NCBI GenBank assembly: GCA_905250025.1
Contig: CAJNOJ010000113.1
Span: 62,001 to 126,000 of the forward strand
Direction: 5' to 3'
Origin: Adineta ricciae
Taxonomy: Eukaryota; Rotifera; Eurotatoria; Adinetida; Adinetidae
DNA: 64,000 nt
Within the stretch, counting starts at the first letter, position 1. Each line of letters starts with the position of its first letter. The notes under the pieces are model-generated. The model did no database searches, had not been told where the DNA came from, and worked only from the letters and a program-made list of their open reading frames with translations. Shown here one piece after another: positions 5,401 to 34,161 of this stretch. The translations under genes were made by a program, and so were the position numbers.

Positions 5401-7422
5401 GTTGGTTTTTAAAGTAGAGAGATTAGTCTAAAATACCATGCCATTAAGAGATCTAGTGTGATAGATGCTGTTCTAAGAAAAGAACAAAACAGAAATTCAT
5501 TTCGCGACCCTTGTTCATCTTGGTGAAATTGTATGGAATAGGAGAAAGGAAATGGAGAGGCATATAATTAAAAAACGAAATCCGATCTGCTCTTATTTCA
5601 TAAATACAGGTGCTTTCTAAACCTCGAAGCTAGAGTATCTACTGCAGTCTCTCTCGCAGACTGAGTTCTGAAAAACTGAAGCATCCTCGCGATATTTTCC
5701 TTTGTGTATGGTTATGTCGATGATTGACAAGGTTAATAATGCAAAAAGTATTGACCGTCAAAAACATCAATGTGAGGAAAATCCCTAACGAATGACACAT
5801 ATAATTATTCGACTTCGATGAGCATTGCTCGAGAGGAATACTTTTGTCAAAAAGTTGACAAGTACTATTTTTTTTTGTCTCGATAAAACGAACAATACAA
5901 AAAAAATCGAAAGATCGGCAGCATCCGACAGGAGTCTTCAATTGAGAAAAAGAAAAGAATACAATGATCTTTTTTGATTTCATCTTCTTGAAAAGTTCGA
6001 GCTAGAAGAATGTTCATCGATGACGTGCTGTGAAAGTTTTCTTTTATATCTTGTCAAGGATTTCTTTGACGTAGAAGGAGGAGTAAACACGACTTCTATT
6101 CAAATGTAAATTATATGAAAAATTTCGTCTATCTATTCTAATGACGTCAATCAAGGCAATCTTGTGACTCCTGAGAAAATCTCGTTTCTTTCGTCAAAAA
6201 TTTATTACTGAGAAATTAAAAAAATCTTACTTTATTATACATTAGTTCATCTCTTAGCTCAAAGTTAGCTACTTTTCTTTGTCTCATCATATTTTCTATT
6301 CCAGAATCTGAACTCTACTTTGCCTTGAGATAAACTGAGAACGAAAGAAAAACGACACCGAAAGTGCATTGAACTAATCAAATTTTCTAACCTTGTGTGG
6401 CTACTACTCAAAGGCAAAGTAACGACGTTATTTTGCTAATTCCGATCCAGACCATGACTATTCTGATCAAACGATTGATTAGAATATAAATGATCGAATC
6501 GATAGTCATGTCGATCTATTGTAAGAAAAAGAAAGAAATGTTTAGAAACTTTCACAGACAAGGAACTACGAAAATTGCTCACGGCGATAATATATTCTTG
6601 TTTTCTCTTCAATAATTAGTATATAATGTATTTCATCTCCTTTCTCGAAGAGAAAAATTAGTCACATTTCAATAACAAACTAGTTATTTACCATCTGATA
6701 TATTGACAGGGAAGATTTCACTTTTATACAATCGAGTGCATTGTCTTCGTACCGACTGGTAATGAACAAAGACGAATCTGAATAATAAATGAGACTCCAG
6801 GCTATTCCGATGTCTCCGAACGTCCTCCTGGACTAGGAAGAATTTTTAGCACAAAACCTAATTGCCTGGTGAAGTTGCGCTGATGGGAAGCCCTTTTTTT
6901 ATCGACAGAAACCTTTTTTCTTTCTACTCGAATATAAATTCAACTAATTACGCCTAAATTCATCAACTAAAAGATTTTCTTCTTATCCTGTCTTAAACCT
7001 AAACATGATTAGGATACTTCCAGATATAAGTGACGTACATGATTATTTCATGAAACAAATAAATACTTTACTATTTCATATAAACTTTTCAACATTTCGT
7101 CGATATTTTATTCATCTTTCACTTTCGTCAGAATCATCATTCATGAAATAATTAATGGGACAAAATTGCCCCTAGGATAAATAGCATCACTTTGCCACAA
7201 ACGTACTATTCAATCAAACGACACGTATAAATAGAAACAGAAGACTGATAATCAATTCGATCAAAAGTACGACTCCATGATGAAAAACTGAATCCATTGA
7301 AATCCATTTGAAGCCCAGTCTGTTATATCGCACAATCCGTCGCATCGAAATTTAATTAGACAACTTCTCATTACACAGATGACATACGACACGTTGCACT
7401 GTGAAGAGAAAGAGAGAAAACG
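5401..7422. other. Intergenic, no supported gene
   Basis: This AT-rich stretch lies between the divergent 5' ends of the GPCR gene (minus) and the sacsin locus (plus). I see no recognisable exon, tRNA or transposon. A 114-codon minus ORF at 5639-5983 has one hydrophobic stretch but no family resemblance and simple-sequence content. Confidence 0.5.
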
Positions 7423-7612
7423 ATGCCAGCATTCAAAAATACTAAATACAACACACCCGATTCGGCTTCTGACAGAATACGTTGTTCTAGTCAAAAGTCA
7501 ACGTATGAAAAATGTCGAATTCATCATCCTGTTGACAAACAAACGCTATTTTTCACACGTTCGCTCGTTCATTTATCAAAATATCAGGGACATCTGCATC
7601 GACTAATGCGAG
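7423..7612 (+). CDS. Candidate sacsin alternative first exon (head 1)
   Basis: ATG at 7423 opens 63 codons plus one base, ending at a good donor (G|gtaaag at 7612/7613). The peptide is Ser/Lys/His-rich (NTPDSASDRIRCSSQKSTYE and onward) and ends in phase 1, the phase needed by the acceptor at 13795. No other downstream plus-strand exon would accept it. It is the most distant and least certain of the upstream heads; the frame also stays open past the donor to about 7656. Confidence 0.4.
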
Positions 7613-9563
7613 GTAAAGTTGATATCATCTCGATTACTTCTCATGGTCGTTTCTAACTTCTTGTGTATGAATGTTAAATATCAATGCATGCGAAGCTTTG
7701 AATAAGTATTGACAAAAGAGTCAAATAAGTATATCTTTTTCTTTTATCAAATATTGACTCGCATCAGATGAATTACAGGCAATCAAAGTGATAATCTACG
7801 AGATATTCCCAATGCATTGTGAACATGTGCATGTAATCCATTTGAAATTCTTAGTAATCACACATGATTTCTCTCTTTTATTTGAACACCATTGTACATA
7901 TCTTAACCGTTTCCTGTTCTAATCTATTTGAAATTCGCTATTGACCCTCATTTTCTTGCTGCATTTTCCATTGCCAAGTCTTAATTAACGGCTGGAGTAA
8001 TATGCTTTGCTATTCGTAAGGGTAGGAACTTCTAATGTTCAATGATCTTGTCATTACAATGAAAATATAAAAAAAGACACGTATAGGCGCATTTGATTCC
8101 TGAACAGTTTCACACAATTAAGAGGCTCGAGACATTCATTGTGTTTCGTTTGAATTATTTCATGAAATGAAGAATCGAAACGGAAAAAGTTGAAGGATCA
8201 ACAGATTAAACGCAATGATTTCGTTTTTCCAACATCATCATAGTCGACACTTCGTTCTTTGTTTGCAAATACAAAAGAAATCGAGACGTTTTTCTTTTGT
8301 ATGTAAAGTGTTCGAAGTATTATTTTTTCTTCTTTATCTTCGTCAAGTGTTTAACCTCAAATTTAAAGTAGAAGTTGAGAAAAAAAAGAAAACGAACTCG
8401 AAGCAATATTCTTTCCGACGACAAACTTGAAAACGAAAATTCAAAACGTTTGTTTATTATTATTGTTTTTTCGTGAGAAGAACACGAGCCAAACGTTCGA
8501 TGATTAACCCTATTCCACCGATGACAGTTATCTCAGTTTATTTTTCTCACTCTTTATTTATACACCAAGGTTGAATATTCCCATCTAGACAGTATTTATT
8601 GACATACATGCTGAATTAATATCAGATATGAAGTATATGCATTATAGAAAATAATCGATTTTGAAGGACCAAAGGAATATAATTTCACTGCTTCATCTGA
8701 TGATACACATCGATCGGAAGAAAAGTAAATCGAATGATCCTTATGAGACCAATCGACTGATACATACGTACGCAAATATATATAAATACATAAATGTATG
8801 TGTGTGCTTCGAAATAGTAGTTCAGTGCATAAATTATTCATTCTGGTGTTCGCACCCAATAAAGCACATGTTGATTGTCTGACTTTTTTTTATTCATATT
8901 GTATTTACTGTTCATGATGCGAACAATTTTAGAAGGCACGTCGTTAATATTAAAAAAAAATCATTAGTTCCCAGTGTCTAGCATTGATCTTCTTAAGTGA
9001 CAGAAAGAACAAGAAAAGTCATTCATAATGACCGTCTGTCCAAGCTCAATCGAATAGCTGTACACATAATATCTCGTATTTATTCGCGATAATCTAGGTG
9101 AGAATGAACAAATGTTTTTCTTTCATCAACGACATGTTTTGAAAAGTTGTCCTAATTTAGATCTTTTATTTGTCTAGTTATCATTAAGACATTTATTTTA
9201 TCTCATTTGTGTACATTAGTACTCTTCGCATTTTCTCTCTCTCCTTCTACGTTTCGCCGTGCATTAAAGCAATAACCACAATTATTCTGCACGTTACATT
9301 GTACAAAAGAACGAAAATACTCTCCGCTTCTGTACACGTATACGTACATACGGAAGAAAAGGCGAAGAAGAAGAAGAAGAGAGACAGAAAAAGAAAAAGA
9401 AAAGGAGACAAAAAAGCCGGTTCGTTTCTTCGACGTACGCTTGCGTTGTATCGATCATATCGTCGTCATTGGTACTACCCGTCTTGGATCGTCGTCATTA
9501 TAGAGTTAACCTTCGATTTTGAATGTTTCAAATCTCATCATTTCCACATTGATAACTATAATT
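7613..9563. other. Intron or intergenic stretch between sacsin heads 1 and 2
   Basis: No coding exon is supported. The ORFs at 8215-8430, 8596-8859 and 8661-8882 are composed of simple AT-rich sequence. The purine-rich stretch 9355-9415 translates to a Lys/Arg run that is probably not coding. Promoter sequence for head 2 is expected here. Confidence 0.45.
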
Positions 9564-9738
9564 ATGATGCGAAAATTTCGTCGAATCTTTCGTGCACCCT
9601 CAACTCCGCCATCCGCCGCAGCACCGACTAAAGATGAAACTATGCACAAGACGCATAGCTGTGACTCAACGTTGGACGACGATGCGTCATACGTCAAGAA
9701 GAGATCATCGCCTGTGACCAATTGTTCGAATTCGGCAG
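9564..9738 (+). CDS. SACS: Sacsin alternative first exon (head 2)
   Basis: Opens with a double ATG (MMRKFRRIFRAPSTPPSAAA) and continues Ser/Thr-rich for 58 codons plus one base, ending at the donor G|gtaaaag. Joined in phase 1 to the acceptor at 13795 it gives a continuous 3575-residue sacsin reading frame. The basic N-terminus with alternating Arg and hydrophobic residues could be an amphipathic membrane or mitochondrial-type targeting stretch, which is only a guess. The ORF continues upstream to 9519 from a non-ATG codon, so 9564 is the start chosen. Confidence 0.6.
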
Positions 9739-12700
9739 GTAAAAGAAAGAAAAATATATATATGAAAGATTCGAATGTTTTCAGTTTTTTTCTTGTTTTC
9801 GATTCCATTGAGATTACACGTCAAGGTGAATTTGCTTTCGTGTGTGCATTTATAAGTTTTCTACATTTGCGTTTTTGCGTTTTTTTTTAAAGTCATTTCA
9901 TCTGTATCAGTTGGCCGATTGTGATCTGACAGGGATATGCACGGTTAACTTATGTAGGGAGGTAAGAGCGTACGATCAATGGAGAATGTGACTACTCATT
10001 TTCTATTCAATCTTTGATCATTGAAGATATAATGATCATTTCTAATTAGGTTTTGTTGATTGTTCACACATAGTTGTAGTCATACGTATAATGTCCGGAT
10101 AAAGAATTTCTTTGATCGTTTAAGAGAATAGAGAGGAAAGAAATCCAGACACACACAAAACATCTGGTGGTGTTAGTCAACCGACATAATATACTCTCAT
10201 TTACCATCGTCTTGTATATAAATATTCTTCTTAGTTACACAGCGTACTATTCGAGATATGTTTGTATATATTGCGTGGGCTTGCGTTCGAACATTCTCAC
10301 AAAACACGCGTACAAGGATAGTAACAGTCATATGGCTTCGGTACGATCGAGGCAATGATGATGTGAGATATTGATAGTAATAAATGAAACGTATTCTTCA
10401 CCTTTAACATTTGACGCATCGAGGTGAAGACAAGTATTGTATACAGAGAGAGAATAATAGATAAAGAAATACGTACATGCTTCCATATGACTACGTTGGA
10501 GAAAAGAAAACGAGAGATTTATCACTCGTGATCAGCTGATTGTATCTCTAAGCAACTAGATAAGAGATTTTGCTCTTGACAATCAAGTAAAAAAGATGAA
10601 AGATTTTCAATTAAAAACAAGGTTATCTCTAACCAAAATCGATTTCCTCTAGTGATATGAAAGAGAAAAAGTTATGCTAATCTTTTTTTCCAAGATATGA
10701 ATGTCTCGAGGAAACCTTTCGAGAAGTCATAGTTCGATGCGATACCGTCAATTGAATCGACCTAGCTGAGAAGAATATATCGTTTTCACTCGACGTAAGT
10801 GTAATATGTATCTACGTTTATACAACGTAAATTGAGTACTTCGAAGTTGGTTATTTGATATCGATTTTCGCGTCTTTTTCTTGTCGTTATATGGATCAAA
10901 ATCGGATCAATACACTTGTCTAGTATATATAATACATCGACGTACGAATTACTATTGATGTGCACAGGATACGTTATTCACACGTCTTCAAGCAACCGAA
11001 TCTGTCGAGGATAAAAGGAAGAAAAAGACGAGAAGAGTAATCGTCAATAACAGGTATTTGAGAATTTTTCTTAGATACATATTCTTCTTTCTTTTTTGCC
11101 ATCTGTCTCCTATCTTTACAGAACACTGTGTCGTAATTGAGAATACATAGAATATATTGAATAAACAGTCGAAATATACAATTAAATAAATCGACAATGG
11201 ATGAACAAAGTTAAAACAATTGTGTTGATAACCTCTCTCTCTCTCTTCCTCATCTGCGAAGTCTTTCTCTTCACGTTTATTTCTAAAGAAAACAAGAAAT
11301 CATGCTTCATCTTCTTCCGTTTATGTTTCTCTCGTGCAGACATAAAATCCCTCGTATGCATTTAGGAGAAGTAAAATGGCACAAGCGAGTCAATGACGAC
11401 GAAGAAGAATAATAACCACATTTGATTTTCTTCCTATTGTGTGCATGTTTTGCTTAGTTTTATTAAACAAGCAAAGTTCTCTTCTCGTTTGTGTATGTTT
11501 GTGAGAAGTCAAAAGTAGAGATCTGCATTTTTGATCGTACGTTGACGGTTTTACTTGTGGTTTTAACCGCCAATGAAGAATTCCCGACGCAAGCGAAAAC
11601 GGCTATTTGCATCTGTACCTACTCAACACGGTGAGATTGTTTTTTGTCTAATAATCGCAATCGAGGCCCTTTTAGTCACATGCAGTAATCGAAAACAAAA
11701 ATTTTCGTTTGTATAGTCAAATCAGCATAGTTTTCTTTTGGGTAACATTTGATCTTTTTCTCTATTCATGCATACCGTAGCCAAAAAATAATCCCATACC
11801 TTTGCATTTCTTTTTCTTTCGATTTGTTACTTATACAAGACATTTAAGTGCACTTTAATATTGAAAAAGGAGGTATTTTCTTCGGGTAAATTTTTTATTG
11901 TTAGCTTATCTCACATTCGCTTTTCAATTTCTCATTTTTCATGTATGTAGAGGGATTAATGATTGATTGTTTGATCGTTGCATATATCCGATAGAAATAA
12001 ATCCTGTCGAATTCAAATCTCATGGAACAGGGCGCATTTTCTGCGAGGAGGAAACTCATGACCGTGTGTGTGTATTTTGTGAATCAGCGTTTACCTTTTT
12101 TCTTTTCCACACACTTTCAGCGAGAAATCGACGCCTTTTTCTTCTGTAAGTAGATAAGTAGCTGACGTGTTTCATATGCATGTCATCGCCCGAGACTATT
12201 GGACGAGGAGAAACTCTTTTGTGAGTATTTATAGTAGAACAATCCTCAAATGATTTGTTATCTTCTTTTTGGTTCTCGCGCGCAGACGTCTAGAAGGTTA
12301 AATCAAATACCGAATAGGTTTCGATATCTCCTTGCCGTTTAGACTTTCGAATCTGAATCACACATTTGTTTTGTTTTTCATTACCTTTCTAAAAACCAAA
12401 CCTTGAAGTTGTACATCATATCGAATAGTAAAATCAAAGATAAATAGTAGTAAACATTGTGACTCGCATTTCGATGCGTTATGTCGTTGTTCGAGTACAC
12501 CAAAGAAAACATGATATGGTTATACGTATCTATAGTGATTTACTATTTGTGCTATAAACTTTCGATCTATTTATGGCATATGATCGTCGATATTTATTAT
12601 CATAGAACGAGTAAGATTTCGTTTGTTTTCGACAGATATGTGTAGCATTCATTCGAAAAACTATGGTGCTGGATGAGTGTTCGCGTTATTTATTCTTAGT

Positions 12701-15700
12701 AGACATTGTTCAGCAAGACAATTTGTTTAATACATGCTTGAGTTGTAATCTTTCTATCTATACGGTTTGTTTACAGTTAACTTTCTTGATCTTAAATCAA
12801 TCCGTCAAAATCAATTTAATCATCAAATAGCTATTGTTTGAAACCAATGAGTGTACACATGAATAATAGTGGGAGAACGCAGACGTGTCATTAGATCGCT
12901 CTCTTCTCTACTTGGTATGTTTGTCAGGTAGATAATTATATTATTCAACTCGATTATTCACGGAACGTTTTGAACAGTCATTGTGAGATTATTTGTGAGT
13001 AGTTATTTGCTTTCTGCATGACATGGAGAAGTGCGCGCACGTCCATCGTATAATTTGTTTTTGATAGGTAAAATGAAATGTGCTCGGATATATTCTATCC
13101 ACGTGAGCTTTTAAATAGACTTACTTCGTTCAATTCTCTTTTGTCATTGTTGCTGTATGTATACGTGATAAGGTCGACATTTCTCTCGGTCGCCATATAT
13201 TGTCTTTCTCCTTCTCGCTCTCTCTCCCTCCGTTAGTCGCCCTTCATTCTTTCGTTCGTTCCCGTCCATCATACGTAGAAGCACAGGAATACGTTAGTGA
13301 AAGCGCTCATCTCGGCATGTTTTTTTTTATTCTCCTATCGTATCGAGAACAAAATAATTAGTCTTGATAAAAAGAGAAAGAAGGCAGGTAGCCAACTTGA
13401 CCGAAGTCAGCACTATTTTCTACTGTTGATGGACATGAAGCATGATGGATTGAAGTCTAGTAGGTTGCGCAAACTCGTCGATGTTACGACTGCTTCTCTC
13501 TCTCTCTCTCTTTTTCTCTATTCTTCTTCACTTCAAGAAGAATATCTGATTACGAAACAATTGTACAACTTGTTGAAATGAAAAAGAAGATTACTCTTTC
13601 ATATCAATGATTTCACTTCTATACTATTCCTTCTGTTCATTTTTTCCTACTGACCTACATTGTTGTCTTTTGATAAGAACAAAGAAGAAAGAATAGGACA
13701 ATATTTTGTCAGTTTCGATTCAATCCCATTTTTTGATTAAATCAAAGTTGTACAAAGGTTAAGTAAACAGTTTCTCTTTTTTTTGAATATCTAGAATCAC
13801 CGAAAACAACAAATCCTACTCCACATTCACCATCGCCTTCAATATCCGACGAGAAACAATATGCAAAAATGCGCGTTATATCTTCTCCAGTCTTTCAATT
13901 ACGCGATATAGTTCACGCTCTATTAACATCATCCTCCTACGATCTAATATCAACATTTTTAACTTATGGACAATTATTAGGTGCATCATCGATTCATGGC
14001 TATCTCGTTGATCCTACAAAGGATGCTCAATTACTTATTAATGATGATTATACCTCCTCCCAAGGTATTGCTCTCTACGTTACCTATGATATGAAACTAA
14101 GTGATCAACAATGGAAAGATCAGTTCGGCATCCATGAATCAACAAGTACTAAATCGAAAAATCCGGCGACGTTTTTTCCTTTAACAGATTATTTATGTAT
14201 ACTAAGTGGCTCACGAGTGATATTCTACGATCCGAATGAACGTATTATCAACGAAGATCGTGCATTTGTTTCGATCTTTGATTTAGAAACAGATGATGTC
14301 ACTGCATTTAAAAATCAATTCTCGAAATTAGATTATTTTCTATTCAAGTCGAAAACGTACTACAACGGAACGTTAATTCGTCTCCCATTGCGAACCATTC
14401 TCACGCAAAAGCAAACGTTAAATGATTTAAAACAACAGATCTACAGATATTTCAATCTGAATAATTCATTGATCGATTTGTTACTGACGCAATTGAATTT
14501 GAGCACCATCGATTTCGATTACACGAAAGACTTCGAGATCTTCCAACGCTTTCTATCCTACGAGAAGCAGTCACTTTCAAGTATACACGATAATCAATCC
14601 ACCACGCAAATTATTCATTTAACATTATCTCGATTAATAAATGAAATTAATACAAGGTTCGTATAGAGAATCGATGTTATTTCATCGAGCGGAACAATTC
14701 GTGAGTTCAAAAGATAATCGACTGATAAACTTTAAAGGTTATGAAATTTTTTTTCTCTTTCGCGCTGCACATCCCGATGACCGTGAGCATCACCTTCATT
14801 GAAATAGCTGATAATACTCATTAGGACGGCAGAGTAGAACAGATGTGTATGACATCGAAGAACCGATCGGGTCATTGATATCGTATAGGAGTGTCATAAT
14901 TGTCTGTTTTGATATGTTTATTGATGGTTCAAGACGAGACAGAGATAATGTTCCATGAAATGATATATATATCTTAACCTCTAAGAGATCGGATTTCGAC
15001 AGGATTAGAAATGATACATACATTTGAATTTTAGTGATGTGTCTTGTTGGCTTTTATCGACACATACGAATCAAAGTGATATTGGCAAAAGTAAAACTGA
15101 GTTGAAATTACTACTTCCACTGACGCCGCTTAGTCTTGCATCGGAATCGCACAATTCATCAGCACAATCGTACAAATACCAATTAATCCAAATAACCTCA
15201 TCTCGAACTCTGTACTGTCACTCAACGGCATCAGTAAATCTATCAGCAAAGGATGACCTATCCGCACATTTACGTCAAATCAACTTTCCGCAAGCGTACG
15301 CATTGTTTTTGAAAGATCTATCTCGATTAATAAAACCAACGATCACGTCGCCATCGAACTTATCCATCGATCTGATTTGGGAACTAATGCCTGATATCGA
15401 TGAGCATCAACGTTTATGGAATGACAAACAGCAATATACTTCGCAATCCCAACCACGAGTTCATCTGATCAATAAAATCATACCCGATATGTGGAAAGAA
15501 ATCGGTAAGACGGCAGTTTCTTTTTCTATGCATGTTCATATTGAATTTGTTCGAGGCAATGTTCTATTAAGTTGCCATGAATAGGCGATTTGAACAAGAA
15601 ATCAAGTAGAAATTCGTTCTTCACTTTAATATGAACAAATCTCTTCTAGGTAAACAAGAACTGTTCTATTCCGTAACAGATGGCTGGGGCTATGTTGCGA

Positions 15701-18700
15701 TTGAGGATATGATCATCAATAACGTCGAAGCAGGACCCATTCAGGATGTCCTCACATTTGTGTTTTCTGAAGCAAATGCACCTATTGTTATCTTACCGTC
15801 TCACGTTATCAATGGTTTGTGTAAATATTCAAATAAACAATATTTACAAGTGATGACACCGTTTCACGCATCGGAGTTATTAGCGAAGAACTCATCGTTG
15901 CTTCTGCGTTTATCATTCCAACAGAAAGTGTCTCTCTTAAAATACATCATTTTGAATGATCCTGATCCGAGTTTAGTATTGGAATTAGAATTGTTGCCAT
16001 TAGCAAATCATACGTTCGCAACATTTCAAACAAAACAAGCGATTACGGTGTATGTCATGGATCGAAATTTGAATTTCTTGAAACTATTTCACAAGGAGCA
16101 ACATGATCGGTTTCTAAATCCGATGATCGATCAAGATTTATTCGATAAATTATCATCGAAGAATTTTCAAGGTAAGACAGACATGTATATTGTTTTGCTT
16201 TGATTTACACTTGATCAGTATTTGTCTTTCTCGTCTGTTGCTTTTATTTTACTTTCATCGTTTCGAATTAAGTGGTAAATCTGTGAAGAGTGAAAACGAG
16301 CAGAAGGAAGAAATTGTTGGTGAAGAAAGATTTTTGTTGTTTTTGTTATATAGTAGTTACCTTCTATTTCTAAGCACATTTTTCTTTTCTTTCTCACGTA
16401 CTTGCTGAGTTTCAACAGAGTGAAGTTTTTATTCAAACAACGGGCAGACCTAGTAAAGCGAAGCCAAAAGAAGCTATGCGTGCAAGAGAGGAAGGGAGTG
16501 AGAGAGAGAGAGAGAAAGAAAAAGAGCGGCAGAGAAAAGAAAAAGAAAATGTCTTTAACTGCAACAAACTGAATGTCGACGACGACCGCAAGTGGTACTA
16601 TAAACCGATAGCGACAATAAGTGCGACTACACGTGTGTTGTTTTTTCTTCTATTTGGTTTCGAAAAAGGTGAATATGTATCGACCAGCAAATTATAATAA
16701 TTCACCGGGAAATTATTCTGATCGTTATTCGAAAAACAGTCGAAGGGCGGAATCAACTTCACCAGCGTCTCATGATCGAGGTAATGAATAGTGAGTAAAA
16801 ATATTCTTGCGATAACGAAAAAAAAACAACGAATAAATATTCGCCAAAGTCAGATCGAATAAAAATGCGTGTATATGTTTGTTTTCTTTATTATATTTAT
16901 CTTCATATGTGGATATAAGTAGAAATGTTCAAGGTGAACGAGAAGTTGTTCGAATAGCAAGATAAAGAAAAGTAATGCTGGCATTTTGTGTGCGTGTGTG
17001 TGTTATTAGTTAACCTTAAGTGATGATCAAGGCTTTCTCTCCTGTACGTATGTTCTGCACATGTCATAAGATGATCAAAGAACATCGCTATCGACTTGAT
17101 TGTAAATGACTAAGCAGCAATTAGATTCACTATGATTTATCAGTTCAAGTAGGTTTGGAATGGGCAGATCGAGGCCGTTTTATGTCTAATGCATACACAT
17201 GTTAGAAGAGTTGAGGTTCAGTATTTTTGAGCGCAAGGTCAATTGAAACCATACTCAACTGATCATTATCATTATCTGTAGATTTCGAAACGAAACGAAT
17301 CTAACGTAAGAGTCTTTGTCAACACAAGGTGAAGTGAGTTTTGTGCATGTTTATTGTATCTCTTCCATGGTCAATGGTTTAATTATCAATGCGCATATTT
17401 TCATATCGATGCGGTGTGTAGAAGATCGGCTTGCTGTATTTAACTATACATCTAAGGCTACAAATGAGTCTCGTTAATCTTTTCAAGTTCTTTCTTCGCG
17501 CTTGTCGCATAATCAAGACAACGAAGCAGAAAAAGTGATTGCATTCTCGCAGCTCTCTTTTCAAGTGAATTGTTTCAAAGTAAATAAACTATTCATGAAA
17601 TATGATGACACGATACAGATTAATAATAACCGTCTGATACAATCAGCCGTTCACAAGCGATTACTTATTTATTCTGACACATAACAACATACATTCAAGC
17701 TCTATCTCTAGTGTGTTTCCTATGATTATTTTTTCTCTGCCTTTCCTCCCTGTCTCTCCCTCTCTCTCTACTCTCCTTTTTCTGTCTCTATCCCTCATCT
17801 AGCCACAGCTCAACAATTGCAGTTCGAAATTCTACTCGACCGTTGTTGGTTGACGGCTACAGTAAGCACTTGAACTCATATGCATGGATGCTTCCTTTCT
17901 TCGATTTTTTCCACGTTAAATACATACATATACTTACATTTATATGTGTACATTTCATAAGATGACGATGAGTGTTATTCTAACGAATACTTGGCAAAAT
18001 TGATCTGTCAATATCGACTAGTATCATAGTAAAACAACGAAGAAAAGGCGAATTTTCTTCAAGGATTTACTACGATTATCATCTTCAATAGGAAGACTAA
18101 ACGAAACAAAACAATCGCGCCGAAGAAGAAGGAAATTGAATTGAAATCGATTAAATACCGATAAATCGAACTTCTTTTTCTTCTTCTTCTTTGAATGGGT
18201 AATATGAATTGTGCAAGAAGTTCACATTTATCGAACAGATCCGAAACGACTTCTTTCAACGATCAGCCTTTGTCGTCGAAGCGCGTATATCGCTACAAAG
18301 AACAATCATCTGTTCCATCCTCACCTTCGAATTCAATCTCGAAAGGTAATATATTCCTTATTTGCTAACACCATCTCTTATTGACATCAAGCTTTATAAG
18401 TGATTTTCAAGAGTTCTCCTTGTTCCCCTTTATGTATATATATATATTCATTCACACTTGAATTTATATATCCGAATTGAGCATGTCTATGGCATTTATT
18501 GAACATGAGAGAAAATACCAGTACTTATCGTTCGATATTTTCAATGTTAAATAACGAATGAAAGCTTAGAATAGCTGCGTATAATTAACCGTTTGGCAAA
18601 CAAATCTGTAAGAGATTACGTTCGCTGTAAGGTTTCAGTTTCGATGTATGGGATATCAGTTGAAACAATTGTAAGCATCGTAATAATAAATCTAGATTTC

Positions 18701-21700
18701 GAGTACATTGTTGTACGGAACGAGATATCGTATCGTAAGAACAGGAGAAAAGAAAAAAAGTCAGAAAGTAAAGGCAGTGATTTTGAAAGGATTTCGTGAG
18801 CAGTTAAGTTTAGAATTATATATGTGTGTTCAAAAGGTCTAATATGATGAAGGTCGTTTGGCCGATGTTCTTTGACAGGAGGAATACAGGCAGGAATTTG
18901 AATATGTGATGAAAAAAAGAAAACGAGAAGAGAGAAAAAACGGACTAATCGAAGAACAGAGATGGGTATTATTGATTGTATATAGAACATAAGAAAAAAT
19001 CCTTCGATCAGGTCTATATAATCTGGAATCATTTGGACAAGCTCACTTTCTTCCTCTTCGACGTTGTTTCGAATGGCATCAATCAATCATAGTACTAGCT
19101 CGTCGAAAAAACGTCATGTATCTTTCAATCACTTTCTGGCGTCGAAGAATCTCTCGATCTTTCGCTGTAAATCTCCGAATATTGATAATCCAAATCCAGT
19201 TGTATCATCGTCGTTGCCGGTCTGTCTGGAAAACGGTTGGTTGAAAGAACATTTACCACAGCCTCTCTCGCTCGATCTTCAACTTTTCAAAGACATCCTG
19301 ATAGACAATGATGAACCATCAGCACCGAATGACCATGGTACACGATCTAAGTAGTTCTTGAAAATATTCATGCACTCTAGGTTTTTTGTCGTAGAATGTT
19401 TAGAGAAGATGAGAAAATAGAACTTTCGTTACGTTGAGAATATGTTGCGAACTTTTGTTCTTCGAAACAAGAAAAAGAGGTCGATATTTCCGATAAGGTA
19501 ACATAGCACTATTAACAAGTCGTATTGATATACAGAGAAAATTGTAGTTGGGTCGACCTTTCACATTATCTTTACAGATATTAGAGAAAAAACATTTTAC
19601 ATGTGCTCATTACACTGTATGGTAATGATCGGAAAAATGTTCCTTCATGTCAATTGAAAACCTATTAAAAAAATAAACTTATCTCAAGGTAATCAATAGA
19701 CATATCGAAACAAATTTGTCTCGTTCCTTTCCCTACTCGAGTATAGGCAGTGAAATCGCACGAGAAAAAATTGACGAAATTTCCTCGAAGGTCACTGATT
19801 ATTGCGAAGGAATAGACATTATATGGCGTATTTCCCTTTATTTCAATTGGCACACATCTACGTCGATATTTTGTCAATAGATTAGAATAACATGTGTATA
19901 GGATTGTATAATCTGGTTCCTTTGGAAGTGATTGATCTAGTTGTATCAGTTTTATTATTAGTTCATTTCAGTTCAATCAAGTTTCTCTCAAACGACATGT
20001 GTGTATGTTAATGATTACGTAAAAAAATATCGACCACAATCATTTTGATAACAACTTCATTATGTGATGACATTACATAGCTGCATTCTACCGGTGCACC
20101 GTGCTACCATGAATAGAATAGAAAGCGAGTAACAGAGAGTGAGAGAGAGAAATGAGAATCAGTGATGGTATTACTCTTCTGCTTGGTAATATATTGTGTA
20201 TATTACTGTTCTCTTTTGCTGTTCTCTCTTGATTTTTTACCTTGCTGCTCTTTCTTCTCACTCACCACACCGATCGTGCTTGAATACGTTCTCTTTCTCT
20301 CCTTTCTCTCTCTCCTTCTCTTTTTTCCTACGAATATACGTACAAGTTTTTTATGATGACGTCCCTGTACATACGCCACCACTCTCTTACTATCACTCTT
20401 CTTCTTCATCACACGTTCGCCGTACGAAAAGAAGAATAGAGTGAAGATTGAGGATGATGATTACGATTATCGTCTAGCCTGAAATAAAAAACTACATCAT
20501 ATACATACATATATATATCCGTGGTATACGTTCAACTAAAGATACTATGGATGCAAGACATAGTTTTTCAGCAACTAAACCAACAGCTGATGAACAGAAA
20601 CCGCATACTGCCAAGAATCATAATGAGACTAATGTACAAAGTCATCGAAATCCATCGACACCGACGATGACCACGCGTTATTTTCACCGTACTCCTCTGA
20701 TATTTCCTCAACACCATCAACAACGTCTTCGTACACCATCTCCAAGATTTTCTTCGTCGTACTTGGGCCCGTTAAATCAACATCGTTCCCGATTCTTATC
20801 TGCTTGGGATCTTACTCCAAGACCGAGTGCGCACGCCTCAACACGTAATACATCAGTCATGACTCCAACGCCAACATTATTATCTGAACAATATGATCGT
20901 GAAATGCCTTCTCCCCGAGCACCGATGCAGAATTCCGCTGCTCATTCGTACGATGAAAATTCATATTCTCTCCAATCAATGATTCCTAATACATCACGCA
21001 ATTCTTTAACACCTAATTCCACACCTATTCTAGCTCCGAAAGCCAATGAAATGAATTCGCGTTCTCCACGAGTAAATATGCCTCCTAATTCATCACGAAA
21101 TACATCTGGAATACCTTCAACGCCAAAATCAATACCAAAACAACAACCTGATGAAACATCACGTTCGACCCGACCGTCGATGCATAAATCAACTCGCAAT
21201 ACAATTACATCTCTTCCAGCACCTCCATCACCATCAAAGCAACAAGATGAAAGTTCACGCGCGTCAAGACCATCTATACACAATTCACTACGCCACTCTC
21301 AACCAACTACTCCAATACCTACAGTAGTGCCGCAACAATACATTGAGGGTTCGTGTATCTTGAACAGTTGCGCTTTTCTTTAATTAGATACATCTACACG
21401 TATGAAAATTGTGTAATAGACTTTTCATTCCTTTCTTTAGACATATCGCGATCAGAGATATGTACATACTTCAGAAATTCTTAGACTTACTAATCAGTTC
21501 AAGAAACAATGGAGATATTTATCTTTCTGCGCTGGCATATACTTTTCAGTTGTTTTATAAGGATAAAAATAGAAAATGTTTCAAGTAAATATCAGTTAGA
21601 AGAAGACAGTGCAAAACCTGTCATTTATCCTTGGTAGAAATGACAACAAAAAAACTCATCGTTCACATTCGAAAAAAGTTATACATCAACAAAAAAACTT

Positions 21701-24700
21701 TTTTGTCAGATTCTTTCTTAATCAACAGACCATAATAAAACAGAGTGCGCTCGCAGCGTAATACGTATGGCATAATGTCTCTCTCTCTCTTGATTAGATT
21801 TTCTTTCTTTTTTTTCTATTTTAAAGAAGACCTTGTTCTTGAAAAAGAATAAACAAAAACCGAAAATCTCATCATCGCCAAAGCCAAAACACTTTCTCTT
21901 CACTTGCGTACACATATCATCGTCAATCCTTAAGCGCTTTATATATTTTCTTTTACGATTGTCATTACACGAGAGAGCTAGCGACAACGTGACAATCGAA
22001 TCTCGAACCACAAAACCACATATGTTTATATATACGTATAAATATAAGTGTCTGATTGCTTTCTCTTTCTCTCTTTCGACGCGAACGAGCGAATGCATGA
22101 GTAGACTGCTCATTGTTAAGAAGGACATCCAAGTATGTATATGTGCGAGACGGCTCACATCCAGATAAAGACGTTTAGTTTTTTTTTTTTTAGAAGAAAA
22201 CACTGTAGAGAAACTCCGTTTGTCAGATCAGAAGTTCGTTGATTGTTCCTCTTCTCGTTCGTTGAAATTGTTAATGAATTGAAAAGAAGATTGCTTGGAA
22301 TTCATTATTTCTTTTCTGCTCTTTTGTATAAGAAAAAGAAACGATCGAATTTCTAACAGTAATGAAAACGGACACTATTCAATCTTGACCTCTTATTGAC
22401 AATTCTTTTATACACAGCTGTTACTATCACAATCTCGTTGCCATTCGTACGTTGTTAAAAGTATAAAGACCTAGACAGACATTGAAGTTGTTCCTTTTTT
22501 TCTCTCTTCTTCTTCTTCTTCTTCATCTTTCGTACACAATAAAACTGTAGACAAAGACAGACGATTGGGATTAATCAATCAATAGATCGACAAAAGCAAA
22601 ATCCTTCTCGTCTTTCTTGTTGACATTTGCTAATAAACTGAGTATGACGATGAATTTATTTACTTCGAAGCTTTCCAGAATTTGAAATCAACTCGGTATC
22701 AGCTGGAGAAGTTTTTTTCTTTGTCTTTATTAGATCGTACACAATTGCAAACAATGCCAGCCAAAGATTTCGCTGATTTAGTTATGTTACCACGAGAATG
22801 GCGTCGTGGTGATGACTGTATACAGTGGCCACGCACTCACGACTATTACAACATTCCATGGCTTGAAAATCTTTGGAAATATATCAATGAAAAGCTTCCC
22901 AACGACTTAACACTCCTGGAAAACACCAACATACTCTATTTGCAGCCAAGTTCACGACCGTTAGGCTCAGCATCGAACAATAACACCATATCGTTATACA
23001 AACTATCGAAGAACATCGGCCTTATCCAGCTGCCGACTGTGCCGAGTAAAGATGATTTAGCTATACAAAAAGTGCTTTTGAAACTGAACTTTCACTGTGT
23101 TGAACCCTTTCCCGAAATCATCCGTCGGCATAAACTAATCGAAGAGTATGTTCCTCAGCTCTCATGCTTAGGTTTATTGCAAATTCTCAAATGTCGCCTA
23201 AGACATTTTACTCAATTGAAGATTCAACATGAATTCAATACACTATTAAACGAACATGATATGAAATTACTTCGACAATATCTATCACGTATTATGACAC
23301 AACAATTAGATGATTCAAACATTCAATGTATTAAACAACTGCCCATTTTTGATAATGCCTATGTCATTCATGAAAGTAATCACCATACACAAGCCCAAAA
23401 CCAACAACAATATTATAAATACATTAGTTTGAATAATATTTTATACATTTATGAATCTGGGACGAAACTACCAATTGATTTACAACCACCGAAACAGTGT
23501 ATTCATGTAACGGATAGTGATTCACGTATTCTATTGGATAAATTAGGCTATGTCATACATGATTTTACACATGTGGCAAGATATTTAATCACAGCAATCG
23601 GCCATCAGCAACAATCGAATATTCAACAGCAACAGAATGCAACGAATATCAATCTAAAAAATGATCAACATAAAATGTTATTCCTAGGAAAGTGGTTACT
23701 ATCGAACTGTTCGAATTTGATCTTGAGCGATGCTGTTAGTCAAGATACCTTATCATCGTGTCGGTTATTTCTCAATCGAAAAGGGGAACTATGTTCGTGC
23801 CAACAAATGTTCGATCCGTCATCATTTCACGTAAATAATAAAGAAAAATATTTAAGTCTATTCGAATTAAAATACCTTCCCGCAATCGAACTATGCAGTG
23901 TACATGAATCGTTAACACTATTAAAACATTTGAAATTACGCCAGTTTTACGATATCAAATGCGATGAATTGATCGACATATGCGAAGGGACAATGAAAGA
24001 ATCATCATCATCAACAGCCGGCAAACGTTCATTGATGTTGTTACTAGCTGAATTTATCATCGATATTTTACATCAGAATTCGAAATTAATCGAAGAATAT
24101 TCGCAATCGAAACGGCTCAGTCTGAAACAATATTTGAATATCACAGCTTGGATGCCAGTTATGATTGAAAGACCACATGGTTATCCATTGTCATTAACAT
24201 GGCAAGGTAAGTGTCATATTGGAGTTCTCTGAATTCACCTTGATGTTCCCTATCGATCGAAATAATTTGTCAATTAAGGCAGAGGTCAGTGACGTTCATT
24301 AGTTCAGTTGACAACGAACTTTTTTGATTAGTGGAACGATCAACAATGTCATCGGTTATTGTAAACAATCTAATTAATTCGTATCTTCTAGGTTCGATCG
24401 ATACTCGTCGATCATTCGTTAATCCACGCGAAATTTGTGATAAGACAAATGCGTATCTCGTAGGCGGTGTAGCTTTGGTTTCATCGATTGATCTTCCAGA
24501 ATCGTTTTATCATACAACACGTTCATCGAATCGAACAATACTTGACTTCCGTGAAATTAAACTTGACCTATTGATCAAACAATTGAAATGCTTAGTTCTG
24601 TGTTATCAAAAAAGTTCAGCCCATGAACAAAAAAACGAAACATTCGATTATCTGAATCTATGCAAACGTCTCTATGATACATTGACACATTTTACTAATA

Positions 24701-27700
24701 CGAATGATATACACAACGAAATGCGCAAGTGTAATCTAACTGAATGGATATGGAATGGCACGAATGGATTTTCGTCGACGAATCAGATTTATCTTGTCGA
24801 CAAAACACATCCACTAGCATCGTATATACAAATTCTTCCATATGAATTATACAGCTATCGGAAATTCTTCGAATCCATGGGAGTGAAAAGTCAACCGGAA
24901 TCATCAAAAATCGAAGATTTATTACGAAATCATCATCAACAACCGATTGACGAGAATCTCTTTCGATGGATTAAAGAAACCTACACAACTGACCGTCGTC
25001 TATTACAATTGATCAACGACTTCGAATTGAAATCCCATGCAAAGTCTAACACCAACCACCACCATCATCATCATCATCATCATCACCAACAACCACAAAC
25101 AAATAACAATAATAATTCAAAAAGTAAAAATCTTCACGACGAGCAAACGCGTATTACTTTCTCGAGCACACTTGATTTGTCCGATGACAAGGTCTATCTT
25201 TATTTACCAGGTAAAATTTCAAGGACAGTTTATTAAGACGGGTGCATCCTCTTCTTTTCTCCCATAGATATATTCAATAAGCAAACGAATATAAAAGAAA
25301 CAGTAGTTCAAGCATTATCAACCATATCGAAAGAGAAGAAGACTCAATTATTAACTGAAGAAGATTTCTTCATTCGGAAAATGTCCGGCAGTGAATACCA
25401 GAAGAATCTCTACGATCACTATCGAGCATACAATGATTTACTTCTGCCCAATTTGAATGTCCTACCGAAGAATGTCAAGGATACGCTGGTTCTATTCGCA
25501 TTGGACAATGCGGATAACACAATGTTGAATATTCTCAAGCAACATTGTTGTATTCCGTGTACACCAAATGGCCGAACATTGAACAAACCATCGAAATTAA
25601 TTCATCCTTATTGCCGTCTAGCATCGCTCTACTCCGATATTGATTCGTTATTTCCATACGGTGGGCAAGATTCATATTTACGAGAAGATCGGCTCAATGT
25701 TTTGAAATTACTCGGTAAGAAGACGACTGAAGCATATGTGATATTTTCCGACGGAAAGAATGTTGATGAAACAAATCAATTGACTCGTATTCGAGTTATG
25801 AGAGGGTAGAGAAAATGTTAGATTAGATATCTTTCACGCCTTTTTTTCTGCCAAATAATCAGTCATTTTCGATCGTAAGCAGTATCTCCTGAAAATCAAA
25901 TGTAATTTATTGAATATTTCTCCTTCCGCGAAAATAAATATCTTCAAGGACATTGATATACTTTTAATTACAACGATCTATCTTACGAAAATAATTTTCC
26001 TTCACTCTCGATTTTCTCTCTGCCTTTTAAATAGGTATGAAATGTGATGACAACCTTGTAACATGGCCCGAATTAGTCGAACGCTGCGAATCAATTCAAC
26101 GTATGCGTGATTATGATCTTGCCTATGAACGTTCAGTCGCACTTCTTCAAATTCTCAATGATATGTTAACGATGTCGAATTCCAATCCGACGAGAACCTT
26201 CGACGAGAACGATGACTCGTCCGATCGTCGTTCTCGACAATCGTCGTCGTCGAATTCACGAGAGAAATCAACAACGAACTCTTCGTCGTCGATTTCAAAC
26301 ACACATGAAGCACTACATGATAAAGAAGCGCGCACACGCGCATCGATTCAACTTCGCGAATTAGCATTCATTCCAATTAAACTTCGTCCACAGGAGTTAA
26401 ATGGAATCAATTTAACGTGGATGGGTGACAAATATTCGAAACGTTTGTTCAAACCACGCGATGTACTCTCACCCCAATACGAACAACTCGTTTGTTCAAC
26501 ATGGCCCATAGCCGAACAATCGAAAGCGAATCAAGAACAAATTATCATAACTAAACAAGTCGAACATTTTCTTGCACTTGATGACGCAACGAAGATCGAA
26601 TTGAATAACATTCTCAAACAACTCGACGAAATCTCCAAGTTATCAATTGTAAATAGTTCCGGAACAGTAACGTACAACCATCAATTAACGTCGAAATACA
26701 TACTCGACATGAGCTATGCGATTTATGATTACATTCAAGCCTTCTGCTTTCCGCATTTACAAAAATCGAATGAATTAGAATTTCGTTCGTCAGCTATGGG
26801 TCCGGAGCAAATTGAAACCGTTAAAAACGAAATCCGACAATTCTTCTCGCAGCGTCGATTAGTTTACTTCACTGATACCTCATCCGTCGATACGTATTTG
26901 TTTCTTTCTCTCTCTCAGCTATTATGGCAATCACCGAATCCATCGTCGAGTAAACATTCCAAACATTTAAAGCCTTACTACTATACAATACCTGTTTCGT
27001 TGCAAAAGACTTATCGACATTTCTTCATTGATTTACTACAAATAAAAAATCAACTGGATGGAAAGGATCTTTTGAATATCATCGACCAAATTCGCAAGAA
27101 GTATGGTACGAAGCCGATCGATAAAGACGATTTGAGTTTATTGCAAAACATTTATACGCTATTGATCGAACAATACTCGAATGTTTTTCATACGAATATT
27201 CAATTATATTTGCCAAATGTTGATTGTGTGCTTCATTTGGGCTCGAATTTATTTTTTTATCCGTTCGAAAGAGAACAAAATGGTAAGTGGAAGAATGCCC
27301 CTGTGCGTGTGTGTTTTTCTCTTCATTTCGTTTTCTTCGTTCTATCCACCTCTCATAAATAAGGTAATTCATCCGTAACATTCTATATTCTTTCATCTTT
27401 CTTCGATTTGATGCATAATCATCGACATGGTCAATTAAATATAAATGTAAATATATACATATTTCATGTTGATGATGATGATCATCATCATCTTCTTTAC
27501 GGTATGTTTTATGAGCTTTCGAATGAGTACACAATATATGCAAACATACTCAGCAGTAGTTTGCGTTATTATAACTGTAGCCTTGTCGTTCTCCTGATCA
27601 TTGCTTACTTTCTGATTGTATTTGAAAGTAAGAGTACATTTCTTCTCTCGATTCTGTCCGTCATCTTATCGCGTCTGTGAAGCCATCGACACAATTGCCG

Positions 27701-30700
27701 TTGGTTGTTGTGGTTGCAGTCTAGTTCGCTGTGCATAACTCTTTATCAAGCAGAAGAAGAAGAAAAAAACGAAAGAAGCACAGTTAGTGTGTGTGTGTGT
27801 GTATACGTCTTATTGTTCTCATATGCAATGTCATCGACACCACGAAAATGCAATGATCAGACAATTTACTTCAAACTTCCATGCACAATAAATTGTAAAG
27901 GAGAAAGGAGAAGTTTTTCTTTCATTTTTCTCTCTGTTCTACCAAACACTTTCGCGGTTTTCTCCTCCTGTTCTTCTTTTACTCTCTCTTTTATTATGTT
28001 TATCTCTCTATCAAATTTCTCCAGTTGTATTTTTTTTATCTTCTATTTTTATTTTACCTGTCTGAGTTATTCCTTTTCTTCTCATATATTTATTTTCTTT
28101 CGTAGTGTCAACTTCTTCTCCAGCCGCACAGAACGAACATTACGTGCATCCATCTGTTGATCGACGTGTTTGTCTCAAGGCCGGTGTTAAAGTACAGAAA
28201 AATCCCATTGCTACTGCAACAGTATCGTCGGCAACTCTACCAAACACGTCAATGACGAACACTTCATCCCCGACGAACAATAATTCGTCGCGCTTATTCC
28301 CGAGAATCTTCGGTAATAAGAAACTGGAATCGATTCTTGCACGACTCGACGATCCACACATCAATCCACAATTAGTCGAAACAATGGACGAATCCAATCC
28401 GAACATCGTCTTAGAATTTCTTCTCGAATCTAATAAACATACTCAAATAACGAATAACTTATCGGATGATGATATTATCATAATATTAAAATATTTCAAT
28501 GATTTTTTAACAAGTGGTTTTCAAGGTAATTTTCAAAAATTACGTGAATTGAAAATTTATAAGCCACTTTGGGGCATTGCATCCACGGATGACAAACAAC
28601 AGCCAATTCAGCAATGTTGTTCATTGGAAAACTTTGCACACGTGTATATTCTGAATGAAGAATGGTCGAATATAATTCGGCGTTCGTTCAAACGAAATTT
28701 CTTCACCGAACAGTTCCATGAGAAGAAAACCGTTTTACTAATGCAGAAGAAAATCGAACCGTTGAGTAAAATCTTCACACACATACGATTCATCATCCCG
28801 TCGGATATGGAGATCTTTTCTCAATTGTGTTTGCCGCATTTCAGAAAACTAGATGTTCGATCACAAGCGAATCTACTGAAATATTTTACCGATGATATCG
28901 ATGATAAGTTATTTCAACATGAAAAAGATCAATGTCGAAAGCAACTGCACGATCACTTGGAAATCTTTACACAATCGGCAAACAATCATCATCATCATGA
29001 GCATTTACATAGAACAATGGGAAGTTCGAGATCATCGGTAAGAATTTCGCTAGCGAAGCTTCGACATCATGCATTAGATTTCTTCTCTCTCTTGTAGCGT
29101 GATCCACCGGAAATCTGTCCGATCTTTGAATTGTACGATCCACATATAAAAAATATCCGCTCAATATTAGATGTTCATCATTTTCCCGATGAACAATTTC
29201 ACACGCCAACAATGCTCAAGTTTCTTAAAGAATGCGGCCTTCGTTCGTATATTCCAACCGATAAGTGTAAACAAATCATGGAATCAATCCAATTGAATGT
29301 TAAACAAGAAGGTTGGACGAATGAATTGCGTAAACGTTCGAAATATCTCTACGAACACTTACTCACCAACTGGACACGTTACGATAATTCCATCCTTGAT
29401 TATAAATTTCTCGAACCCCATCAAATGCATTTCGAAAGTGATGATCTCATGCAATTGCACGAACAATACACAAATTCTTCGGATAATATCAATCCTGCCG
29501 AACATTTTCGACATACGTGTATTAAGCTAAGCGATGGTGAATTGCTGAAAGATGCGAGATTATGTTGGACATCGTCGTATTTATTGCCAGAATTCGTTCG
29601 CCTTGAACAGTATGATGATTTCAGTGAAAAACAACAACCCATCGAACAGAATGCACTGGACTTCTTCAAATTAAATAAAAAACCATCGTACGCTTTGGTA
29701 CAAAAGAATCTTTCCAATCTTGCCAAGAAATTCTCGCTTAAATACCATAAAATCAAGTTAGTTTTCGATTTTCGCACGATATTTCTCATATCGTCTCTCT
29801 CTCTCTCTCCTTTAGTAATAATCCCAAATCATCTCCAACAGTCATTCCCCAACAAGGTACTGACGATATTCTAATATCAGTATTGAAGACCATTTATCAT
29901 TATTTCCAATACGAGATCAAACACGAACGTCGCGCCGAGATTTACAAAGAATTAGAAGATCGAGAATGCATTTATTCTCGTACACGTCGACAATTTCTTC
30001 ACGGCAAATATTTTTGTTTGAATCTACCCATCGCCGATGAAATTCCTCCGTTTTTGTTCTCACTCGATCAAGATTTTCATGAGTATAAAGAATTCTTTCT
30101 ACATATCGGTGTTCAAGCCGATCCTCACCCGATGTTATACGGCGACATTCTTCGGAAATTGTCCAAGGTCTGCGACCAAGACTATCTGAACTCCAATGAA
30201 TTGTGCAAATCGTTGAAAGCAATGGAATGTTTCTTTAAATACTTAGCTATTAATTCAACGATTAACTCGCAAACAAAACTACCTGGTAAGATCGATTTGC
30301 TTTTTCTATAGATTTCGACTATTGAAAAAGACTCTCCTCGATGAATAAAGCACCTGCTGAGATCGAGTACTTCTTTTCGCAAACTTTCAGCTATCGAGAC
30401 ATAATTACTTAGAATGTTTCGCGCATGCTTTATTCCCTATACTTTTTTTTTCAATTGATGAAGTCGTACAGATCGTTTTGGGGCTTCGATCGAAAATAAT
30501 TCAAAGGCTAAACGTCTATCGACGCTTTTTCTTGTTTCCTAGGTCTTTACCTTGTAACGAATGATTTTAAATTAGTCAAATCTAATGATATTGTCATCAT
30601 GGATGACAAGAGCAAACTTGATTATATGACGAAATTAGTTCATGATAAATTCATGTTTAATCCAAATGAACGTGTGCTAAAACTTGATCCTAGTCCATCG

Positions 30701-33301: not shown

Positions 33302-34161
33302 GGACATAATCGATCCGTCGGCCCTCCTTCCTCATCTCTAGTCAAATGTTCCTTTCTCTCTCTCTCTCTCTCTCGATTTCTTACAGTATGCGCTCGCATT
33401 CATCCTGTTGTGACGTATCATTTCTTATTTCTGTGGTTTTCTTTTCTCGTCGTTTTGCTTCTCCTTATTAACAATGAGAGATGGTCAAATCATCTCTGTT
33501 CTCCCCTTTTGTTATACATTATTTTTTGCCGTTGCTCTTCGTTTTTATACAAACAGTTCTAGAATTAGCAACATGTTTTCTTAACACAATGAAATAAGAG
33601 ATGAGGGGGGAAATTCATGTACAAAAAAGGTCAATTCATATTTCTCATTTTCTTTTTTTCTACGATTTTGTTCTCTTGTCTTATCCTACTCTTTATACTT
33701 TCTCTCTCTCTCTCTCTAGTTAACGTATACTAGTGATGTGCTCGATCGTGGTGTGTTAACCTTCTACTACTTCAGTTGTTCGTTTCTTTTCATACATTGA
33801 TCGAAATGCAGAGAGGAGATGCATGTTTGTGTGTGTGTGTGTGTGTGATTAGAAAAACAAAATAATAAGAAGCTCCAATGGAATTTTTCTCTTTCTTCCA
33901 TACGTCAGAGTGTCCGTGGTGATGATGTTCAAGTCGAATAATAAAAATATTATAGGAAATCATCAATTGATGACGTTTTCAATCGAATAACTCTTCAACT
34001 GTATGAGATACTTTATTATTGCAAATAAATTCAAAGGAAAAGGTGAATGAATAGAGCGGATAAAAATAGTCGTGCATTAAGAAAAGCGATATGAATAATA
34101 TGAATTTGAATAATAATCATATAGAAAGAAAAAAACAACAAGAAAATTTCATAATGTTTGT
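33302..34161. other. Convergent intergenic region, sacsin 3' end and giant Ig gene 3' end
   Basis: The two large genes converge here. Contains CT microsatellites (about 33355-33374 and 33701-33717) and a GT run (33828-33847). No coding exon seen; both polyadenylation regions should be here. Confidence 0.6.
33828..33847. repeat. (GT)n microsatellite
   Basis: GT dinucleotide run of about 20 bp in the convergent intergenic region. Confidence 0.9.

Follow-up and report, generated by a model that had tools for sequence, protein, structure and literature searches.

A sacsin-type gene of the rotifer Adineta ricciae with a probable array of alternative first coding exons and three entry points

The 64,000-nucleotide (nt) stretch of DNA analysed here, referred to as the window, comprises bases 62001-126000 of contig CAJNOJ010000113.1 (C113) in the 130 Mb genome of the rotifer Adineta ricciae. 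Our reading of its sequence, which we hold with good though not full confidence, is that it carries a single, intact gene of the sacsin type whose first coding exons, here termed heads, form a mutually exclusive array and would be spliced to three phase-1 entry acceptors. The computed basis is twofold: two diverged copies of the locus have retained start codon, phase, donor and a related peptide, and the spliced frames are open. The original prediction had proposed a cluster of at least six, probably seven, alternative first exons giving one sacsin body interchangeable N-termini. An old duplicate of the locus, in which heads are conserved, argues strongly for that core idea, although details changed, so that the observation is partly confirmed and the interpretation partly supported.

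The 15 body exons (Table 1) form a single open frame in the gene model, terminating in IEDIMYP and a stop. Its SACS and HEPN domains, with a J-like match that stays under the Pfam cut-off, identify the gene as a sacsin. The SACS domain (PF25794, 46.7 bits against a cut-off of 32.8, E 4.5e-12, profile positions 52-203 of 247) is encoded by the first body exon; the DnaJ match reaches 24.7 bits, under its cut-off of 27.8, with an HPD motif at body residue 3156, and the C-terminal HEPN domain matches PF05168 with an E-value of 1.8e-14. The domain scan covered the body exons and heads H2, H7 and HX. No ubiquitin domain was matched in the exons scanned singly or in these three heads, and the three repeats of vertebrates had as their counterpart one SACS match in the exons and none in the three heads; an exon-by-exon scan can overlook domains spanning exons, and invertebrate sacsins are not bound to follow the architecture of vertebrate ones.

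The acceptors at 13795, 22734 and 28106 are all phase-1. The original prediction had placed the first correctly and the second at 22671, 63 nt away from the acceptor that replaces it; 22734 scores 9.5 against 5.0 bits with splice-site models trained on 105 introns of 34-90 nt (a set restricted to short introns by construction) and has a counterpart in the old duplicate, none being seen for 22671. As both positions share a phase, the earlier phase logic survives this correction. Its caution that phase is moderate evidence was borne out, since ten of the 14 body introns are phase 1 and the abundance of phase-1 candidates described below makes phase alone weak. Twelve of the 14 body introns measure 53-378 nt, the exceptions being the intron before 22734 (6562 nt) and that before 28106 (823 nt). 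The heads sit in these two introns or upstream of 13795, in agreement with the predicted long, head-bearing introns. Because most introns of the gene are short, multi-kilobase stretches full of conserved head exons are unexpected. Entry at 22734 drops body residues 1-618, including the SACS domain, and entry at 28106 drops residues 1-1947; with the sole SACS-domain match lying after 13795, heads entering at either later acceptor would thus omit that domain.

Table 1. Features of the sacsin-type locus, in window positions. C11 is the contig carrying the older duplicate; the last column gives identical positions around the donor in the two copies. Heads and their acceptors are predictions.
Feature	Position	Strand	Description	C11 counterpart	Donor surroundings
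Body exons 1-5	13795-14656, 15035-15504, 15650-16171, 22734-24206, 24392-25210	+			
Body exons 6-10	25268-25714, 26035-27282, 28106-29037, 29098-29756, 29816-30285	+			
Body exons 11-15	30543-31751, 31805-32686, 32752-32909, 32965-33172, 33231-33301	+			
Entry point A	13795-16171	+	three exons, SACS domain in first; spliced frame open	acceptor 26796	
Entry point B	22734-27282	+	four exons; spliced frame open	acceptor 35399	
Entry point C	28106-33301	+	C-terminal exons to stop; HPD-bearing J-like domain and HEPN domain		
Head H2	9564-9738	+	58 residues + 1 base, starts MMRKFRRIFR; to 13795	22400-22544, starts MMRKFRKIFR, ATG and phase-1 donor	7/14
Head H3	11573-11630	+	19 residues + 1 base, polybasic MKNSRRKRKR; to 13795	24353-24404, MKRYKRKRGKK	12/14
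Head HX (new)	12511-12610	+	33 residues + 1 base, hydrophobic, transmembrane-like; to 13795	25526-25655, 43 residues	12/14
Head H9 (new)	13429-13459	+	10 residues + 1 base, MDMKHDGLKS; to 13795	26151-26181, MDMQPDKFNS, equal length	10/14
Head H4	16675-16780	+	35 residues + 1 base, starts MYRPANY; to 22734	29851-29950, starts MYRSNFY	11/14
Head H5	18195-18345	+	50 residues + 1 base, MGNMNC...; to 22734	31361-31520, starts MGNTPAC	10/14
Head H6 (doubtful)	19073-19166	+	end perhaps at 19166 instead of 19337; core KKRHVSFNHFL; perhaps to 22734	core match 31680, KKRDVIFNLFL	
Head H7	20547-21348	+	267 residues + 1 base, Ser/Pro-rich; to 22734	33168-33507, 113 residues	
Head H10 (new)	27828-27894	+	22 residues + 1 base, MSSTPRKCNDQTIYFKLPCTIN; to 28106	40666-40732, MSTTPLKRSNHTIVFKFPSSVN, equal length	12/14
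Conserved non-coding block, candidate promoter of H9	13028-13428	+	alignment 13028-13490 (through H9), 67.5%, E 3.5e-46	25782-26213	
Conserved non-coding block, candidate promoter of H7	20013-20546	+	alignment 20013-20896 (part of H7), 67.1%, E 2.8e-108	32608-33502	

Two further copies of the locus were used for comparison. An allelic copy lies on contig C37 (a single 35 kb alignment of 95.2% identity) and an older duplicate on C11, with exon alignments of 67-77% in DNA. Over five exon stretches, protein identity between the locus and C11 is 0.80, and 141 of 355 four-fold sites are identical (0.40, chance 0.26). With synonymous sites so near saturation, unconstrained sequence should be largely lost, and similarity surviving elsewhere is therefore informative. 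The units of ATG, peptide and donor of H2, H3, HX, H9, H4, H5, H7 and H10 are collinear in C11, and the spliced frame is open to the gene stop for all nine heads tested, giving 1551-3534 residues.

In the introns scanned, 78 segments running from an ATG to a phase-1 donor are conserved between the window and C37, with 50 distinct donors. These were paired with C11 candidates under a joint criterion of a peptide score of at least 20 and at least 10 of 14 identical positions around the donor; pairs lying 600-1500 nt off the expected place were excluded from both the matching and the mismatched class. Among phase-1 pairs at matching places, 24 of 355 pass, against none of 4868 mismatched pairs. 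The passing pairs use seven of the 50 distinct donors, namely those of H3, HX, H9, H4, H5, H7 and H10, and many of them come from ATGs nested within H5 and H7. The corresponding counts are 0/225 matching and 2/5415 mismatched for phase 0, and 0/178 and 1/2838 for phase 2. Phase-1 donors are kept in C11 for eight heads, seven by the joint criterion and H2 by its peptide. A first automatic comparison had placed H2, H5 and H7 above all 100 shuffles and H4 only above the 95% point, with H6 and the segment at 7423 (H1) below it. For each of the five retained heads of the original prediction (H2, H3, H4, H5 and H7), which had been named without conservation data, the highest score falls to the proposed frame.

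Seven segments running from ATG to GT do exist about where the original prediction put them, each with a possible end after the first base of a codon; five of them are retained on the strength of their C11 counterparts, one (H6) is doubtful, one (H1) is rejected, and three heads (H9, HX and H10) had been missed. H1 is ruled out by the allele on C37, which has ATA in place of the ATG and loses the frame through a gap of 2 bases, together with a C11 match that scores 29 where shuffles reach 38. Among the heads assigned to 13795, H2 has a peptide score of 56 (frames 56/37/18) with synonymous changes in 7 of 40 aligned codons. The counterpart of H3 was spotted by eye, the automatic best match having fallen elsewhere and equalled the shuffle maximum; 3 of its 17 aligned codons changed synonymously. 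HX scores 64 (frames 64/42/48) and shares CGAGTAAGATT with C11 at the donor; its best 19-residue hydropathy is 1.61, and that of its counterpart 2.21, making it an anchor candidate that may serve in targeting. An upstream in-frame ATG at 12481, present in the window copy and missing in C37, was set aside as its start. The serine/arginine-rich, basic and disordered style attributed to the heads is not shared by HX, which is hydrophobic. The donor of H9 (window 13455-13465) reads A/GTAGGT in the window and G/GTAAGT in both C37 and C11, so that H9 splicing may differ between the two alleles.

Of the heads assigned to 22734, H4 retains 5 identical and 8 synonymous codons among 32 aligned, with a local score of 43 (shuffle maximum 44, 95% point 39). 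H5 has a peptide score of 62.5, synonymous changes in 10 of 41 aligned codons and, in both copies, an MGN start with a nearby cysteine; this N-terminus fits an N-myristoylation pattern and may be so modified. H7 has a peptide score of 260 against 75 and 59.5 in the other frames, and 36 identical plus 33 synonymous codons of 111. By eye, its extra length relative to C11 resembles expansion of a Ser/Pro-rich repeat. A candidate at 20165 (score 46.5) was rejected as being conserved upstream DNA of H7, with donor surroundings of 3-6/14, frames of 46.5/39.5/33.5 and an allele gap. At window 19613-19720 there is a conserved donor-like CTCAAG/GTAAT[CT]A; as no conserved ATG was seen with it, it may mark a first exon that is non-coding. 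In H6 the core match and a nearly equally distant ATG are found in C11 (frames 24.5/3/-2.5), and its best conserved donor pair (19117 and C11 31727, 11/14) is phase 0 and would not fit 22734. H10 lies in the 823-nt intron preceding 28106 and points to a third entry point, beyond the coordinates of the original prediction.

Several observations weigh against this array of heads. The thresholds of the joint criterion were chosen after a first look at the data, and HX, H9 and H10 were discovered by the same comparison that now supports them. H2 did not pass the joint criterion despite its strong N-terminal match, owing to its donor surroundings; nor did H6, whose phase-1 donor in C11 scores 0.22 bits. 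The frame test of H10 (59/55/23) is weak taken alone. The H7 donor (GTTCGT in the window, GTGCGT in C11) is atypical, and coding-like conservation extends about 20 nt beyond it, such that H7 might read on to a stop. For C11 itself, no allele turned up when a stretch of it was searched against the genome. Lastly, the heads are much less constrained than the body between the alleles. Nine heads show 28 non-synonymous against 21 synonymous codon changes, of which H7 alone contributes 13 and 14 and the eight others 15 and 7, near the ratio of intron pseudo-codons (136 and 49); seven body exons show 37 and 134 (eight of the 15 exons were tried and one gapped exon was dropped).

How the heads would be brought to the 5' end of transcripts was considered from the DNA upstream of them. 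In addition to the blocks preceding H9 and H7 (Table 1), a conserved non-coding alignment at 8606-9593 runs into H2, and shorter blocks precede H4 and H10. These favour separate promoters for at least H2, H7, H9, H4 and H10. GA/CT tracts were too few to serve as a shared promoter mark, six occurring in three intron stretches, of which four precede a head by no more than 450 nt. The same isoforms could instead arise from few promoters, long precursor RNAs receiving a spliced leader by trans-splicing upstream of heads or at 13795, 22734 and 28106, an explanation that we regard as somewhat unlikely. Spliced-leader trans-splicing as such is likely in this organism: the genome holds 41 copies each one mismatch from the bdelloid spliced leader, with none for a control pattern, and over half of bdelloid transcripts are trans-spliced according to PMC1925144. 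Together with the allelic and duplicate copies of the locus, these leader copies point to a bdelloid rotifer. The leader copies on contigs C6, C8, C43, C77 and C99 often face opposite ways, at a spacing of about 150 bases. At the locus itself, both copies of H7 show an AG located 5 nt ahead of the ATG (4.1 and 4.4 bits), an acceptor of 5.9 bits precedes H10 in either copy, at distances of 74 and 51 nt, and conserved body ATGs lie just within two entry exons (MR[VI]ISSPVFQ and MPAKDFADL). However, in none of the nine heads is an acceptor both high-scoring and similarly placed in the two copies, H7 and H10 coming nearest; a leader joined directly to the entry acceptors would leave the conserved in-phase head peptides unexplained, and the blocks upstream of the heads look regulatory.

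It is unlikely that only some of the segments are true first exons while others are chance stretches from ATG to donor within conserved regulatory DNA. The number of phase-1 candidates, the weak frame test of H10, the weak constraint between alleles and the failure of H1 and H6 speak for such chance segments, as does a reverse-strand control, which gave high peptide scores at 20266-20409 and lesser ones at 10301-10419. The former interval is conserved DNA upstream of H7, which mimics peptide conservation and thus spoils the reverse strand as a null there. Against chance stand the lack of any comparable pattern in the wrong phases and among mismatched pairs, and the synonymous codon changes in H2, H4, H5 and H7. 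In-frame stops occur upstream of every head within 56 codons in all three copies, as expected of non-coding DNA, which proves little.

That some heads, H7 foremost, are short nested genes or end at a retained stop without being joined to the body seems to us very unlikely. Past its donor, the H7 frame does run to EGSCILNSCAFL and a stop in the window and to EGACIMNSCVFDFSC and a stop in C11. Its donor phase nonetheless fits 22734, and the gene model uses a GTTCGT donor for body exon 13795-14656 as well. Finally, that all seven segments arose by chance, as expected in long AT-rich introns, finds a point in the failure of H1 between alleles, yet the joint-criterion statistics together with near-saturated synonymous sites already make this extremely improbable.

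In the proposed arrangement of alternative first coding exons, each head would supply its own ATG, end one base into a codon and be spliced to one phase-1 entry acceptor, the predicted head exons being transcribed and spliced, for the most part from promoters of their own. H2, H3, HX and H9 would join 13795 to give proteins of about 3500 residues with the SACS domain; H4, H5, H7 and perhaps H6 would join 22734 to give about 2900-3100 residues without it; and H10 would join 28106 to give a protein of 1551 residues that keeps the region of the J-like and HEPN domains. This assignment follows from order and phase, and upstream heads might also use a later acceptor. The differing N-termini (hydrophobic, MGN with cysteine, polybasic, basic, disordered) may direct the same chaperone-like body to different places.

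Parallels exist in other gene families. In the clustered protocadherins and UGT1A, arrays of variable first exons are spliced to a common body; these exons are tandem duplicates of each other that code for large domains, unlike the present heads, which look mutually unrelated and are mostly short. The internal promoters of dystrophin use unique first exons at internal sites to make shortened proteins lacking N-terminal domains, much as the internal heads would shorten the protein here, but mostly with one first exon each, where one entry point of this locus would have three or four heads. In plectin (PLEC), which is not a sacsin, the heads all join one common exon and isoform use is proven, in contrast to the predicted heads here, whose three entry points would also alter length. 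PMC8468861 describes plectin as a giant protein with a dozen alternative first exons that place differing short N-termini on a common body, and to that extent the bank of short heads on a giant shared body is alike. Human sacsin has 4579 residues, a ubiquitin-like N-terminus and three repeats (PMC8745260 and PMC3629688). The present gene resembles vertebrate SACS in its SACS-type domain and HEPN end and perhaps in its J-like one, and differs in that the scan of its exons and of three heads gave no ubiquitin match. The words 'isoform' and 'alternative' are absent from the main text of either paper. Within an open-access library, no paper turned up on a sacsin or bdelloid locus with alternative first exons or promoters, and the paper there that names both sacsin and rotifer mentions sacsin in an expression passage and in a reference.

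Genome-wide, 19 SACS-domain matches occur on 14 contigs, including the three copies of the present locus; 18 are marked as over the cut-off, alone or with neighbours, and they represent an expansion of the sacsin family. A relative from a second species was sought in viral contigs and none was found there. The 257-nt intron at window 30286-30542 is apparently missing from C11 at the equivalent place. Between the upstream gene, which is GPCR-like by eye (resembling G-protein-coupled receptors), and the head cluster, C11 holds about 10 kb extra relative to the window (approximately 8011-21400 in reverse-complement coordinates). Allele divergence at window 6000-8000 amounts to 34-41 substitutions per 500 bases, against 5-37 in the bins covering 8000-22500.

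Taken by its sequence, the locus probably gives the animal a whole family of sacsins that differ in front end and length. A bolder reading, which we put forward tentatively and with low confidence, is that a first-exon bank predating the C11 duplication sets the address of the sacsin co-chaperone, with a transmembrane anchor in one case, an acylated N-terminus in another, and otherwise polybasic or basic leaders or disordered arms, each set on a long, medium or short body, yielding location-specific and SACS-less sacsins. If transcribed, the array would bring together, within a single chaperone gene, a first-exon bank of the plectin kind and internal starts of the dystrophin kind, and the role of sacsin without its SACS domain would become testable. 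With their candidate targeting signals, such natural variants of the N-terminus would help to probe the site of action of sacsin.

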